56,238 nt of DNA from an uncultured Bacteroidia bacterium (GTDB lineage: Bacteria; Bacteroidota; Bacteroidia; J057; CALAJH01): assembly GCA_937922655.1 (NCBI GenBank), contig CALAJH010000073.1:1-56238 (forward strand). The letters run 5' to 3'. Below are positions 33,313 to 56,238 of this stretch, piece after piece. The notes beneath the pieces were generated by a model that was not told the origin of the DNA, did not search any database, and saw only the letters and a program-made list of their open reading frames with translations. Position 1 is the stretch's first letter. The number at the start of each line of letters is the position of its first letter. The translations under genes and the position numbers were made by a program.

Positions 33313-33385
33313 GCGGGAGTAGCTCAGTTGGTAGAGCATCAGCTTCCCAAGCTGAGGGTCGCGGGTTCGAGCCCCGTTTCCCGCT
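33313..33385 (+). tRNA. tRNA-Gly (anticodon CCC)
   Basis: A full cloverleaf can be folded: acceptor GCGGGAG with TTCCCGC, anticodon stem TCAGC/GCTGA around the loop TTCCCAA (anticodon CCC at 33346-33348), and T-stem GCGGG/CCCGT with loop TTCGAGC. The discriminator is T, as is usual for glycine tRNA; CCA is not encoded. A near-consensus -7 box (TAATATTG, 33288-33295) lies upstream. It reads GGG codons. Confidence 0.95.
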
Positions 33386-50267: not shown

Positions 50268-53200
50268 ATGAGAATTATCGCTACGGCGGTCTTTTTGGGG
50301 GTTTTCGTGTCCGTCAACGCCCAGAACCTTACGACCAAAGGAAAAGATTTTTGGTTCGCGTTCATTGAAAACAACGACAATATTTTCAACGAATACGAGC
50401 TGGTCAACGGAGTCAATACCTTCGTCAACGAAAGGCTTTCGGTTTACGTCAGTTCGAACGTCAATACGCAGGGGGTGGTTTCGATTCCATTGTCGCCGGG
50501 GGGATGGTCTCAGGCGTTTACCGTCACGGCGGGGACGACGACCGAAATCGTCATTCCCAACCCCGGCGCCATCGCCCACACGCTGGGCTCGAACGTGGTT
50601 CGCCCCACGGGAGTAAACGTCGTCGCCGACGACTCCGTCAACGTTTTCGCCATCAATTACCAACGCAACACCACCGACGCCACCGTCGTTTTGCCCACCA
50701 ACACTCTTCGCGAAGATTATTACGTCATTTCCTACCGCGAACAAAATTTGAGCGAGGTGGCCGTTGTCGCCGTCGACGACAACACCGTCGTTGAAATAAC
50801 GCCGCCCGCCGGCGCCGTTATTCAAGGGTATACGGGGGCTTTTCCCATCATCCGCACCCTCGACCGCGGACAAGTTTACCAAATCCAATCCAACAACGAC
50901 CTTACCGGCACGCGCGTTCGATTGACGGGTACCGATTGTCGGCGTTTTGCCGTTTTTTCGGGCAACAAATGCACGCAGGTGGGCAACCAGCCCCGTTGCG
51001 ACATGCTTTACGAGCAAATGTTCCCGATAAACACTTTGGGAAGGACGTATTGCACCATTCCTTACGCCACGCGCGACGCCGATATTTTTCGCTTTTTGGC
51101 CGTCGAGGACAACACGAATCTCGTCATCAACGGCGGCGCGCCCACCGTTTTGAACGCCGGCGAATATTTTACCACGGGCGCCGTCAATCAGCCCTTATAC
51201 GTCGAAGCCGACAAACCGCTCATGGCCGCGCAGTATTCGCGCAGCGCCTGCACCGACGCGGCCAACGCCGACGCTTGTGCCGTTTTTTCCGACCAAGTCT
51301 ATGCCGACCCGTTTTACGTTATGCTTTCGTCCGTCGAGCAGATGATTATTCGCGAATGCACCGTCAATTCCCTCAACCTTCCCAACATCGACAACAATTT
51401 CATCAATATTCTTGTCAAAACCGCCCACGTCAATCTGGTAACCGTCGACGGCGTGAACATCGGCGCCCAATTTCAACCCGTACCCGCCAATCCCATATTT
51501 TCGTACGCCCAATATCAAACCAACCAAGGCAACCACGTGATTCGTTGCGATTCGGGGTTGGTGGCGTACGTCTACGGTTTTGGCGAACGCGAGTCTTACG
51601 GTTATGCGGGCGACGTCGTTTTGAACAACATCGCTTTGCGCATTATCACATCGGCCGACCAAGTCAATACCACCCCCCGTGCCTGTGCCGATTCGCTCAT
51701 AACTTTTACGGGCGTCAACCAGGGGGTGGTTACGAGTTGGGAATGGGATTTCGGCGACGGAAGTCCCGTTGTTCCGGGGCAGGTCGTTACCCATGATTAC
51801 GACCAACCCGGCACGTATTTCGTCAAATTGCGCGTAACCACCCCCAGCATTTGCAATGTCGATTCGTCCATACGACAAATCGATATCTTTCGTCCCGATT
51901 ATACAATTTTAAGTATTTCTTCGGCGGCGTGCGGGCAAAACACCGGCGCCGCGACCTTGTTGGGCCTAGGGGGTACTCCGCCTTACCGCTTCGCCGTCGG
52001 CGACGGGCCCTTTCAAACCGCAGGCGCCAACAATCAAATCGTTCTTGAAAATCTTGCCGGCGGGCCGTTGGTGATTCGTTTGCGCGACGCCATCGGCTGT
52101 ACCTTTCTTGACACCCTCGATATTCCCAGCACCTCCGACGTGACCCTTGCGGCACAGGTAGCGAACATCGCTTGTTTTGGCGCCAACGACGGCGTTGTAA
52201 CCTTAACCCCCGGCGGCGGAACCCCGCCGTATCTTTTTCAACTTGGCGACGGGCCGTTGCAAGCCTCCAACGTCTTTTCGCAACTCGCTCCCGGAAGTTA
52301 TACCTTTACCGTCGTCGATTCGGTTCAATGTTCGCAAACCGTAACGGCGGCCGTTTCCCAACCCGACGCTCCCTTTGAGGTATTTATTGAATCCACGGCC
52401 GACATCGTTTGTGTCGGTCAGCCTCTGACCCTCTCGGCGTCGCAAGCCGCCGAGTATCTTTGGCAACCCGGCAACTTTACCGAACAGTTCTATTCTCCCA
52501 ATCCCACCGAAACCACCACGTACACGCTTCGTGCTTTTGACCAAAACGGTTGCGAGGCCGTTGCCGAATATACCATCCAAATTTACAATCCTTGTCCTTG
52601 TTTTTGGGAAGGGATAATCAACGAATATGCCGCCGTTGCCAATCTTGAATATTGTTTGAACACCGCCGACATTACCAACGGCGAGGCCTTCGCGCCCGGC
52701 GACACGGTCATGATTATCCAAATGACGGGCGCGCAAATCGACCTTTCCAATTCCCCTGATTTCGGCACGATTACCGAACTTGGCAATACCGGCAATTTTG
52801 AATGGGCCGAAATTCAAACTATCGAACCTATCGGCGCGGGTTTGTACCGTGTTGCTTTCCGTTACGGCTTGATTAACGACTACGACGCGGTCAATGGCAG
52901 GGTGCAGTTGGTGTCCGTACCCAATTGCGACAACGTCGTGATTTCCGGCACGCTCACCGCGCCCGAATGGAACGGGCAAACGGGCGGCGTATTGGTCTTT
53001 AACGTGCGCAACACCCTTGATTTGGGCCAGCCCGGCGTGGCCATGGACGTATCCGGCAAAGGTTTCGACGGCGGCGAAATGCAAGTGGTAAACATTTCCA
53101 CCGGCCCCGACTTCGATTATTTCTATCCCGATTTTTCGCCTTTCGGCGCACGCAAGGGCGATTCGGTCTGGGAAATGGATTTTAACTTTTCCAACGGTCG

Positions 53201-56200
53201 CGGTGCGCCTGCCAACGGCGGCGGCGGCGGCAACAACCACAACGCGGGCGGTGGCGGCGGCGCCAACGGCGGTTTCGGCGGTCGCGGCGGTTTTGAGTGG
53301 ATTGCCGGCGCCGACGTCGGCGGTCTTGGCGGTAGACCTTTTAATTACAACCCCGCTCAACCCAGAATTTTCATGGGCGGCGGCGGCGGCGCCGGACACG
53401 TCAATACCTCTTGTTCCTTCGGCTCCCCCGGCGCTCGCGGCGGCGGAATCATCGTTTTCAAAACCGAAAACCTCGTTATTCGCGACAATTTTGTTTTTGC
53501 TTCCGGTTTGGACGCCGACCCCGCGCCCGATTGCGACGCCGCCGGCGGTGGCGGGGGCGGCGGAACCGTTCTGGCCGATTACCAAAACATTCTCGCCAAC
53601 GGTATCGTTGAATTTTCCGCCGTCGGAGGCCGTGGCGGAAACACCCTTTGGCTCAGTATTCCCAATCAATGCGTTGGTCCGGGCGGCGGCGGTTCGGGCG
53701 GCGCCCTTTTGACTTCCTTGCCCCTCCTTCCCGCCGTTTCGGAAAACCTTTCCGGCGGGCAAGCCGGCTTCCACGCCAACCCCGATTCTCCTTGTTTTCC
53801 CTCAAACTTCGGCGCATTGCCCGGAACCGAGGGCGTTATTCAGGCCGGTTGGAGCGTTCCCATGTCCAATCAACCTCATGTCACCGACTTGCTTTCCCTC
53901 TCCGTTCAACCCGCTCAAATTTGCGACGGCGACGACGCCGTCATTACCGCCGTCGCACAACCCGGCGACGACTACGTATATACCTTACTCAACGACGGTT
54001 CTACTTTCACCGAAGCGATTGCCGTCTATCCTTCCGTGACCACGACTTACACCGTTGTTGCCCAAAACCAAACTACGGGCTGTCCCGTCGAGGCGCAAAT
54101 CACCGTATCGGTTACCCCTCGGGCGAATTTGACCGTTTCCACCAATTTTGAAGAAATATGTGCGGGCAAAGCGGCGGAACTCAGCGTTGTCGGCGCCGAT
54201 TATTTTCTTTGGCAGCCGGGAAATTTCGTGGGTTCGATTTACAACGTGACTCCGGACGTAACTACGACTTATACCGTCGTTGGTTCTTACGATTTGGGAT
54301 GTGCCGACACCGCCACCGTAACCATTACCGTTTTCCCTATACCCGCCGTTTTGCTTTCGGCTTCTTCCGATACCGTTTGTTTCGGAGACGAAGTGGAAAT
54401 CATTCCTTCGGGGGCGCAAACGTATGTTTGGGAATACGACGGCTCAACTTCGACCGGCTCCCGAACTTTTACGCTTACCGAAACGACGGTTTTCAACGTT
54501 CGTGGAATTGCCGAAGGCCAATGTTTTGCCGACGCTTCGACGACCGTTGTAGTTCGTGCCGCCGTCGTTCCCGAAGTACAAGATCCCGGAACTTTTTGTT
54601 ACAATGCGTTGCCGATTTCGCTTTCCGCCATTCCGTTGGGGGGGACGTTCTCCGGTCCGGGGGTAACCGGCAATACTTTCAATCCCGCCGGTTTGGTTGG
54701 AACCATTCCAATAGAATACTCGGGTTTGGACAACGGATGTTTTTATTCGACGGTTGTTTACGCCAATGTTTTACCGGCGCCGAATCCCGTTATAACGGGT
54801 TTGGCGAACGTTTTCTGCACCGGCCAACTTTGCGTGCAATTGACGGGATTTCCGGCGGGCGGAACTTTTTCCGGTCCGGGCATTGCGGCCAACAACCGTT
54901 TTTGTCCGGGGACGGCGGGGGTCGGGGTGCACGCGATAGTTTATTCGGGTTTGGACGCCGACGGCTGTTTTTACACGACGAGTCGGACGGTAACGGTGAA
55001 TTTGTCGCCGACGCCGTCGCTGACGGGTTTGTCTTCGGAGTATTGTTTGTCGGACGGCTGCGTTTCGATGACGGGTTTTCCTTCGGGCGGACAGTATTTG
55101 GGGCCCGGGGTTGTGGGCAACCAATTTTGTCCGTCGTTGGCGGGGGTGGGGACGCACGCGGTTCGTTACCGCGGGAGTTTGAACGGTTGTTTTTACGAGA
55201 CGACGTTTTCGGTTCGGGTGAAGGCGACGCCGGAGGGTTCGATTTCGGGTTTGGCGGGGACGTACTGTACGTCGGCGCCGTGCGCGACGCTTTCGGGCTT
55301 TCCTTCGGGGGGCGCGTTTGCGGGTCCGGGGATTGTTTCGGGGAACTTGTTTTGTCCGCAAACGGCGGGCGCGGGCACGCACGTTGTTACGTATTCGGGG
55401 GCGGTCGAGGGTTGTTTGTACGCGTCGTCTCGAACCGTAACGGTTTTCCAAAATCCGGAGGGTTCGATTTCGGGATTAAGTTCGGAGCATTGTTTGGACG
55501 GGCCTTGCGAAAGCTTGACGGGCCTTCCGTCGGGGGGCGTGTTTTTGGGTCCGGGGGTTGTGGGCGCCGAGTTTTGTCCGTCGTTGGCCGGGGTCGGGAC
55601 GCACGCGGTTCGTTACCGCGGGGAGGTGAACGGTTGTTCGTACGAAACGACGCAAACGCTTGTCGTCAAGCCGATTCCGGTCGCGACGATAGAAACGGAG
55701 GTTACGCGTTTGTGCGAGACGTCGGGGCCGTTGTCGCTGACGGGTATTCCTTCGGGGGGCGTGTTTTCGGGGCCGTCGGTGGAGGGCTCGGTTTTCGACC
55801 CGTCGGTGGGTCCGGGGCGCTACGTGCTTGTTTATACGGGCTTGTTCGAGGGATGTCCGTACTATACGAATATGGAAATTACGGTGGACGGTCAACCCGA
55901 GGCGTTGATTTTCGGTTTTTCGCCCGCGTATTGTGTGACGGACGGCGCCGTGAGTTTGGGTTCGTTTCCTTCGGGGGGTGAATTTTCGGGTCCGGGGATT
56001 TCGGGAAGCGAATTTTCGCCGTCGGCGGCGGGTGCGGGGGTTCATATGATATCGTACGTTGGATTTTTGAACGCGTGCGCATACGCGACGAGCGTCGAAA
56101 TCGCGGTTTTCGACGTTCCGGAAATCGTCGATTTCGACATTGACGAGGTTTATTGCGTTACGACGGCGCCGTTTGCGTTGTCGGGCACGCCGTCGGGGGG

Positions 56201-56238
56201 CGTATTTTCTTGTCCGACTTCGGGGGTGGTTTTGGGCG
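50268..56238 (+). CDS. Giant surface adhesin with IgGFc-binding-like head, PKD, SprB, Gly-rich and Ig-like repeats (incomplete)
   Basis: The frame stays open from ATG 50268 to the window end, at least 1990 codons, with no stop. A signal peptide (1-19, ending VNAQ) precedes an IgGFc-binding-like domain (about 25-445; KGKDFWFAF, YVYGFGERESYGY). A PKD domain (about 475-550; WEWDFGDGSP), two SprB-type repeats (about 555-705) and an Ig-like domain come next. A beta-rich region (about 780-985; DTVMIIQMTGAQ, LTAPEWNGQTGG) leads into a glycine-rich stretch (about 980-1170), two or three Ig-like domains (about 1215-1435), and at least seven 73-76-residue Ig-like repeats to the end. The C-terminus is missing, probably a gliding-associated or T9SS tail. 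The role is likely adhesion at the cell surface; the target is unknown. Confidence 0.9.
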   Translation, partial: MRIIATAVFLGVFVSVNAQNLTTKGKDFWFAFIENNDNIFNEYELVNGVNTFVNERLSVYVSSNVNTQGVVSIPLSPGGWSQAFTVTAGTTTEIVIPNPGAIAHTLGSNVVRPTGVNVVADDSVNVFAINYQRNTTDATVVLPTNTLREDYYVISYREQNLSEVAVVAVDDNTVVEITPPAGAVIQGYTGAFPIIRTLDRGQVYQIQSNNDLTGTRVRLTGTDCRRFAVFSGNKCTQVGNQPRCDMLYEQMFPINTLGRTYCTIPYATRDADIFRFLAVEDNTNLVINGGAPTVLNAGEYFTTGAVNQPLYVEADKPLMAAQYSRSACTDAANADACAVFSDQVYADPFYVMLSSVEQMIIRECTVNSLNLPNIDNNFINILVKTAHVNLVTVDGVNIGAQFQPVPANPIFSYAQYQTNQGNHVIRCDSGLVAYVYGFGERESYGYAGDVVLNNIALRIITSADQVNTTPRACADSLITFTGVNQGVVTSWEWDFGDGSPVVPGQVVTHDYDQPGTYFVKLRVTTPSICNVDSSIRQIDIFRPDYTILSISSAACGQNTGAATLLGLGGTPPYRFAVGDGPFQTAGANNQIVLENLAGGPLVIRLRDAIGCTFLDTLDIPSTSDVTLAAQVANIACFGANDGVVTLTPGGGTPPYLFQLGDGPLQASNVFSQLAPGSYTFTVVDSVQCSQTVTAAVSQPDAPFEVFIESTADIVCVGQPLTLSASQAAEYLWQPGNFTEQFYSPNPTETTTYTLRAFDQNGCEAVAEYTIQIYNPCPCFWEGIINEYAAVANLEYCLNTADITNGEAFAPGDTVMIIQMTGAQIDLSNSPDFGTITELGNTGNFEWAEIQTIEPIGAGLYRVAFRYGLINDYDAVNGRVQLVSVPNCDNVVISGTLTAPEWNGQTGGVLVFNVRNTLDLGQPGVAMDVSGKGFDGGEMQVVNISTGPDFDYFYPDFSPFGARKGDSVWEMDFNFSNGRGAPANGGGGGNNHNAGGGGGANGGFGGRGGFEWIAGADVGGLGGRPFNYNPAQPRIFMGGGGGAGHVNTSCSFGSPGARGGGIIVFKTENLVIRDNFVFASGLDADPAPDCDAAGGGGGGGTVLADYQNILANGIVEFSAVGGRGGNTLWLSIPNQCVGPGGGGSGGALLTSLPLLPAVSENLSGGQAGFHANPDSPCFPSNFGALPGTEGVIQAGWSVPMSNQPHVTDLLSLSVQPAQICDGDDAVITAVAQPGDDYVYTLLNDGSTFTEAIAVYPSVTTTYTVVAQNQTTGCPVEAQITVSVTPRANLTVSTNFEEICAGKAAELSVVGADYFLWQPGNFVGSIYNVTPDVTTTYTVVGSYDLGCADTATVTITVFPIPAVLLSASSDTVCFGDEVEIIPSGAQTYVWEYDGSTSTGSRTFTLTETTVFNVRGIAEGQCFADASTTVVVRAAVVPEVQDPGTFCYNALPISLSAIPLGGTFSGPGVTGNTFNPAGLVGTIPIEYSGLDNGCFYSTVVYANVLPAPNPVITGLANVFCTGQLCVQLTGFPAGGTFSGPGIAANNRFCPGTAGVGVHAIVYSGLDADGCFYTTSRTVTVNLSPTPSLTGLSSEYCLSDGCVSMTGFPSGGQYLGPGVVGNQFCPSLAGVGTHAVRYRGSLNGCFYETTFSVRVKATPEGSISGLAGTYCTSAPCATLSGFPSGGAFAGPGIVSGNLFCPQTAGAGTHVVTYSGAVEGCLYASSRTVTVFQNPEGSISGLSSEHCLDGPCESLTGLPSGGVFLGPGVVGAEFCPSLAGVGTHAVRYRGEVNGCSYETTQTLVVKPIPVATIETEVTRLCETSGPLSLTGIPSGGVFSGPSVEGSVFDPSVGPGRYVLVYTGLFEGCPYYTNMEITVDGQPEALIFGFSPAYCVTDGAVSLGSFPSGGEFSGPGISGSEFSPSAAGAGVHMISYVGFLNACAYATSVEIAVFDVPEIVDFDIDEVYCVTTAPFALSGTPSGGVFSCPTSGVVLG
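54585..56238 (+). repeat. Tandem Ig-like repeats of the adhesin, 207-228 bp units
   Basis: Units start at 54585, 54792, 55020, 55242, 55467, 55689, 55908 and 56127 (the last incomplete). Each carries a C in the first quarter, then SGG-x-F-x-GPG, an A/V-G-x-G-x-H stretch and GC-x-Y. Units 3 and 5 share near-identical DNA (27 identical bases around 55146-55175 and 55597-55623). Confidence 0.85.

Follow-up and report, generated by a model that had tools for sequence, protein, structure and literature searches.

A 5'-to-3' gradient from C-ending to G-ending codons in giant adhesin genes of an uncultured Bacteroidia bacterium

The window analysed here is the whole of contig C73 (CALAJH010000073.1, 56,238 bp), one of the 84 contigs of the 3.58 Mb genome assembly GCA_937922655.1 from an uncultured Bacteroidia bacterium. 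Its right end is occupied by a giant adhesin gene that is still open where the contig stops. A reading made from the sequence alone had placed a change from C-ending to G-ending codons in the distal repeat array of this gene, and had suggested that the array came from another source or was shaped by exchange and homogenisation of its repeats. The locus thus raises the question whether a jump in codon use inside one gene marks imported or homogenised DNA, or whether it belongs to the position in the gene. The observation was confirmed and proved more general than had been claimed, and the interpretation was partly wrong. In the giant adhesin genes sampled, the choice of synonymous codons changes gradually from 5' to 3', and the distal shift is where this gradient is steep. 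The overall reading, given a probability of about 0.5, combines this gradient and an active position-dependent force with the exchange of segments between paralogues.

The codon gradient in giant adhesin genes

Codon use was scanned along the window gene, and the shift that had been placed near 54.8 kb was recovered with a best change point at position 54720 (log-likelihood gain 99; maximum of 300 permutations 6.6). The fraction G/(G+C) at fourfold sites was 0.286 before this point (577 sites) and 0.818 after it (231 sites). The shift has the shape of a ramp across about 54.5-55.1 kb and not of a step; G/(G+C) per repeat unit, from the unit preceding u1 to u7 (Table 1), was 0.46, 0.48, 0.71, 0.88, 0.85, 0.76, 0.89 and 0.83. 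All of the codons that had been named moved in the direction claimed in counts per amino acid: ACC fell from 0.58 to 0.05 and ACG rose from 0.29 to 0.91 (Thr), TCC fell from 0.39 to 0.02 and TCG rose from 0.34 to 0.80 (Ser), GGC fell from 0.58 to 0.27 and GGG rose from 0.13 to 0.35 (Gly), and TTG rose from 0.38 to 0.74 (Leu). At third positions as a whole, C went from 0.46 to 0.20, G from 0.18 to 0.47, T from 0.25 to 0.27 and A from 0.11 to 0.07, and the shift is therefore mainly a swap of C for G. The two-fold C/T boxes did not move together (GAC 0.69 to 0.92, AAC 0.66 to 0.64, TAC 0.56 to 0.57, TTC 0.43 to 0.24).

The long open reading frames (ORFs) of the genome gave the same picture when low-G and high-G bins were compared: fourfold A was 0.08 in both, fourfold T 0.18 and 0.16, GC content 0.58 and 0.59, and two-fold C 0.65 and 0.58. 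Towards the 3' end NNG replaces synonymous NNC, with constant GC content and little C/T change in two-fold boxes. The boxes of Thr, Ala, Pro and Ser move most, together with Leu by way of TTG, and Val moves too.

The protein of the array matched 24 places in the genome (adjacent matches merged), all of which were fetched. ORFs of more than 1500 codons were counted as giant, and matched places with shorter frames fell outside this count. Among the giant adhesin ORFs, all 11 that include a 5' end show an increase towards G (rho 0.75 in the eleventh, which had been left out at first and was tested last), and in seven of them G/(G+C) of the last quarter exceeds 0.5. After adjustment for codon box and neighbouring bases, the slope was positive in 10 of 10 and also in the eleventh. 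Three of the four giants that lack a 5' end, kept outside the main count, also rise. Without the window gene, the mean difference between last and first quarter was 0.173 (P 0.0002; null of circular shifts and reversals) in a set of 10 ORFs that includes one non-adhesin, L043, with a negative slope. Of 17 ORFs that are complete at the 3' end, including a single non-adhesin, 12 show a renewed drop of G within the last 90 codons.

Other genes were used as controls. Among the other complete ORFs of at least 600 codons, 10 of 37 had a positive slope (median -0.31), a group that includes one exported ORF of 1372 codons, perhaps an adhesin, with a slope of 1.49; the adhesin set of the same comparison includes the non-adhesin L043 (slope -1.71). 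Ordinary ORFs of 300-1000 codons gave 34 positive values out of 106 (mean -0.048). They show a slight trend of the opposite sense, in that G-ending codons drop in the second half. Eight ORFs of the nonribosomal peptide synthetase (NRPS) type from relatives, which served as a control for length, had no trend (rho -0.45 to 0.13).

Outside this genome, a rise was seen in 27 of the 39 giants that have a 5' end (P 0.024, the genes being non-independent and their kinship uncorrected), 16 of 25 in a first set and 11 of 14 in a second. These giants are a hand-picked part of the match lists, chosen by frame length, and ORFs without a 5' end were left out (5 of 30 in the first set and 6 of 20 in the second). 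The clearest example comes from another genus, g20, in which a single orthologous gene was followed through five species, two of them without its 5' end, and the gradient was present in all five, with G/(G+C) of 0.16-0.34 in the first bin seen and 0.43-0.58 in the last. Only 0.44-0.46 of the fourfold third bases match between the orthologue of genome G105 and the others. In this genus the same kind of gradient has been held despite turnover of the synonymous sites, which is not expected of a fossil left by one import.

Position, repeat kinship and segment exchange

A profile of the repeat units collected 284 homologous units in 21 genes of the genome. The G fraction of a unit showed no relation to the value in its closest homologue from a different gene (rho 0.05, mean identity 46%) but followed the value in the adjacent unit of its own gene (rho 0.58, 234 pairs, mean identity 34%); the neighbour effect is entirely a linear trend (detrended lag-1 r 0.08). 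Over homologous units, the trend reached rho 0.89 on contig C33 (38 units), 0.62 on C30 (48 units) and 0.89 in the window gene (12 units), and rho was positive in 12 of the 14 genes with at least seven such units. The partial correlation with G fraction was 0.08 for similarity of the repeat DNA and 0.47 for position. The codon state of a unit goes with its location along the gene, not with its descent. Kinship of units and homogeneity of repeats were rejected as causes on the values of 0.05 and 0.08, and the link that had been drawn between the shift and homogenisation of the repeats was not supported.

The onset of the shift lies about where the repeat array begins, as it would if codon use merely followed from the kind of domain encoded distally or from its amino-acid composition. 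This account is very improbable, since the effect of position survives the adjustment for codon box and neighbouring bases, homologous arrays differ (0.25-0.55 G/(G+C) per unit in the paralogue on contig C31 and 0.71-0.89 in u2-u7 of the window), and a single unit family within the C33 gene spans 0.22-0.93.

Units u3 and u5 had been described as near-identical over about 75 bp. They are indeed the most alike pair (159 of 222 sites), but near-identity overstates a tract of 75 matches in 85 bases (88%), the longest run at or above that level. The intervening u4 is less alike, as had been noted (133 of 222 sites with u3, 141 of 222 with u5). Conversion was assessed by a GENECONV-like permutation of codon columns over the 15 pairs of u2-u7. 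The u3/u5 fragment showed no significant excess (pairwise P 0.03, global P 0.37 over 15 pairs), and the sole pair under 0.05 was u5/u6, with a weak global P of 0.04, which the sequence-only reading had not mentioned. Of the gene conversion or segmental exchange that had been proposed, conversion between u3 and u5 was thus not supported, and exchange was indicated elsewhere, in the final 141 bp of the window.

The alike tract of u3 and u5, the u5/u6 signal and the two 141-bp tracts described below would all suit a founder effect, in which a G-rich unit multiplied and its copies are kept similar by gene conversion. Units u2-u7, however, have only 48-72% of their DNA sites in common, similarity does not predict G, and the most alike repeat pairs found (98.6% on contig C12, 94-95% on C30) are not G-rich, so that homogenisation has a very small chance of being the explanation. 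The copies on C12 (locus L052), which are 98.6% identical over 290 nt, lie at about codons 450-750 of the adhesin frame and are a recent duplication.

Import of a G-ending array from an organism or gene source with other codon habits is likewise highly unlikely. It would suit a marked change within one gene, and exchanged tracts do carry a codon signature; moreover, 60 relatives were searched and none is of the same family, so that a close donor could be missed. On the other side, the best protein matches of the array are paralogues in the same genome (57% identity to that on C31, 47% to that on C25), GC content does not change at the shift, the same trend is found in the other giants of the genome and across species, and kinship of units does not predict codon use. 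The proposal of another source for the array was not upheld. A gradient that goes by position and recurs in paralogues and in the g20 species is explained neither by import nor by homogenisation, and points to an active position-dependent force.

The last 141 bp of the window match, base for base, the right end of contig C31, which carries a paralogous adhesin gene. Ahead of this tract, consecutive blocks of 60 columns show identities of 0.52, 0.65, 0.55 and 0.82 between the two contigs, and the overall figure for 434 columns is 57%. Fourfold sites of C31 count 5 G and 18 C in the 141 nt before the junction and 16 G and 4 C in the shared tract, and those of C73 count 18 G and 1 C before the junction. 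The codon signature of C31 flips at the junction and that of C73 does not; the tract thus agrees with its surroundings in C73 and clashes with those in C31. A second identical end of 141 bp, also G-rich (20 G, 5 C), is common to contigs C7 and C84. The equal length of 141 resembles an assembly word, and the true tracts are therefore probably longer. No further copy of the C73/C31 tract was found in the genome among the 40 of 71 candidates that were scored. The assembly sequence, in which one flank is seen, indicates that paralogous arrays exchange segments and that a tract carries its own codon signature.

The window gene and its surroundings

The coordinates of the features are summarized in Table 1. 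The gene carries adhesin-type domains of Bacteroidota fibrillar adhesins exported by the type IX secretion system (T9SS), namely IgGFc_binding, PKD and SprB repeat. A T9SS sorting domain scored above cut-off in all four complete paralogue ends scanned (TIGR04131 on C33 and C30, TIGR04183 on C24 and C64), and the giant adhesins of this genome are probably exported by the T9SS. SprB is an example of a Bacteroidota adhesin exported in this way. SprB-type adhesins are resembled in the SprB repeat and PKD domains here and in the sorting domains of the paralogues; they differ in that the C-terminal end of the window gene falls outside the assembly.

Table 1. Features of the giant adhesin gene in the window
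Feature	Position	Strand	Basis
Giant adhesin gene	50268..56238	+	Open reading frame and Pfam domains; 1990 codons seen, open at contig end
IgGFc_binding domain	50676..51578	+	PF17517, E 2.7e-67, residues 137-437
PKD domain	51684..51845	+	PF18911, E 1.1e-12, residues 473-526
SprB repeat	52152..52253	+	PF13573, E 2.2e-9, residues 629-662
C-ending codon part of gene	50268..54719	+	G/(G+C) 0.286, fourfold sites
G-ending codon part of gene	54720..56237	+	G/(G+C) 0.818, fourfold sites
Repeat array, units u1-u7 (73-76 amino acids) and cut u8	54558..56237	+	Unit alignment; u4 model all-beta
Unit starts, u1 to u8	54558, 54777, 55005, 55227, 55452, 55674, 55893, 56115	+	
u3 tract, 88% identical to u5	55107..55191	+	75/85 bases; conversion test not significant
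u5 tract, 88% identical to u3	55554..55638	+	75/85 bases
141-bp tract identical to right end of contig C31 (paralogous adhesin gene)	56098..56238	+	DNA comparison

For the array itself, no Pfam family reached the cut-off, a search of PDB sequences found no relative, and Tandem Repeats Finder reported nothing. A structure model of u4, built from seven sequences, was nearly all beta (mean predicted local distance difference test score, pLDDT, 95.4). Foldseek gave this model no PDB match at E<=0.001, and its weak matches include PKD and immunoglobulin (Ig) domains.

Some further observations were made on the gene and on the contig ends. A glycine-rich stretch in the middle of the adhesin, seen by eye at 53200-53800, has strongly C-ending third positions (skew down to -0.94). 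The closest paralogue in the genome of the N-terminal IgGFc_binding part (60% identity) is locus L107 on contig C68, a complete adhesin frame of 1712 codons in which the codon gradient is only mild. Eight contigs end within long adhesin-like frames (C73, C31, C50, C84, C7, C53, C20 and C79), C20 at both ends, and part of the fragmentation of the assembly falls within arrays of this kind. Positions 1-141 of the window recur, in inverted orientation, at the left end of contig C18, and C73 and C18 therefore probably adjoin.

Candidate causes and related systems

The position-dependent force proposed here would most likely be selection that acts on synonymous codons while very long, repetitive messages are translated. 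It may take the form of a distal move from tRNA isoacceptors with G at anticodon position 34 (G34) to those with C at this position (C34), and this selection step has somewhat less than even odds. Both G34 and C34 isoacceptors are present for all seven fourfold boxes counted, and Glu, Gln and Lys have only U34. The little-changed two-fold boxes and the constant A and T fit selection on the choice of isoacceptor. On top of the gradient, paralogous arrays would exchange segments, with the codon signature travelling with the tract. One C34 isoacceptor, a tRNA-Gly with anticodon CCC that reads G-ending codons, is encoded in the window itself (33313-33385).

Several observations weigh against this reading. 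For the tRNA step, the Gly and Arg boxes hardly move despite their C34 tRNAs (0.16 to 0.21 for GG and 0.24 to 0.26 for CG), although Gly does move in the window gene itself, and GAG and AAG (Glu, Lys) rise somewhat without a C34 tRNA. In the ribosomal cluster, G/(G+C) of plus-strand ORFs is 0.30-0.62, apart from one frame of 87 codons at 0.75, so that G-ending codons are not a habit of ribosomal-cluster genes. RNA folding is stronger, not weaker, in the G-rich parts. The trend over homologous units reached P<0.05 in only five of the 14 genes, and was slightly negative in C31 (-0.18) and C25 (-0.33). Adhesin ORFs of 900-1500 codons are weak, with five of six slopes positive (0.88, 0.82, 0.72, 0.08, 0.02 and -0.15). 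The first foreign set is not significant taken alone, and a second giant of G105 is flat, which means that the gradient is no rule for every giant gene. Two other causes were rejected: codon use typical of high expression, on the lack of a G-ending preference in the ribosomal cluster, and weaker RNA structure, on the more stable folding of G-rich windows (rho -0.25, 766 windows).

A counterpart is found in unicellular fungi, where genes are described as C-biased at their 5' and G-biased at their 3' ends (McLean and Tirosh 2011, PMC3315797), with mutation or repair as one proposed option. The same direction of coding-strand skew at fourfold sites is found here, together with flat AT composition along the gene, as the AT skew of the fungal genes is fairly uniform. 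The two cases differ in that the gradient here is found in bacterial giant adhesin genes and is not general across genes, only the minorities of other and ordinary ORFs given above being positive and ordinary genes running slightly the opposite way.

The fungal case lends some weight to a rival in which strand-asymmetric, context-dependent mutation or repair, coupled to transcription, converts coding-strand C to G distally in long transcripts. The AT skew of the fungal genes is fairly uniform, and A and T stay level here; the second base is a pyrimidine in the moving boxes (NCN, NTN) while GGN and CGN stay still, as would suit an effect of context. Cytosine deamination should, however, lead to more T, and no such increase is seen at fourfold sites, nor much change of C/T choice in two-fold boxes; there is no such trend in ordinary genes or in NRPS-type giants; and the fall of G over the last 90 codons in 12 of 17 ORFs is not predicted by a purely positional bias. 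Mutation or repair of this kind is rather unlikely, and selection on synonymous codons during translation remains the preferred reading of the gradient.

Other within-gene trends are known. In Brachypodium coding sequences CG skew declines from 5' to 3' (PMC8535453), a trend of the same direction, to judge by the title, in plant genes. For 91 species, codon usage was described as biased towards AT-rich codons at gene ends (3') (PMC6892556); this is alike as a positional synonymous bias within genes, whereas here GC is constant and the exchange of C for G extends over long stretches. In Apilactobacillus kunkeei, the genes for giant surface proteins were diversified mostly by short intragenic recombination (PMC12863079) and resemble the present genes as giant extracellular proteins with such recombination, whereas no codon gradient appears in the passages available and the term 'GC skew' is absent from the main text. 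Among the open-licence papers listed in the literature searches, none described a gradient of this kind in giant genes of bacteria. The gradient is a variant of known intragenic skew gradients, here in bacterial giant adhesin genes.

An in-gene jump in codon use is often read as foreign DNA, and here it is part of a positional gradient, which is a warning for calls of horizontal transfer made from codon use in giant genes. More broadly, it is suggested only tentatively that the giant adhesin genes in several families of the class carry an actively maintained C-to-G codon switch that is tied to the making of long repeat proteins, travels with recombining segments and is rebuilt in place over time. 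If the positional gradient holds generally, such genes would offer a natural series of homologous units that differ by their place along one message, and the old question of mutation versus translation as the force on synonymous codons within genes would become directly testable.

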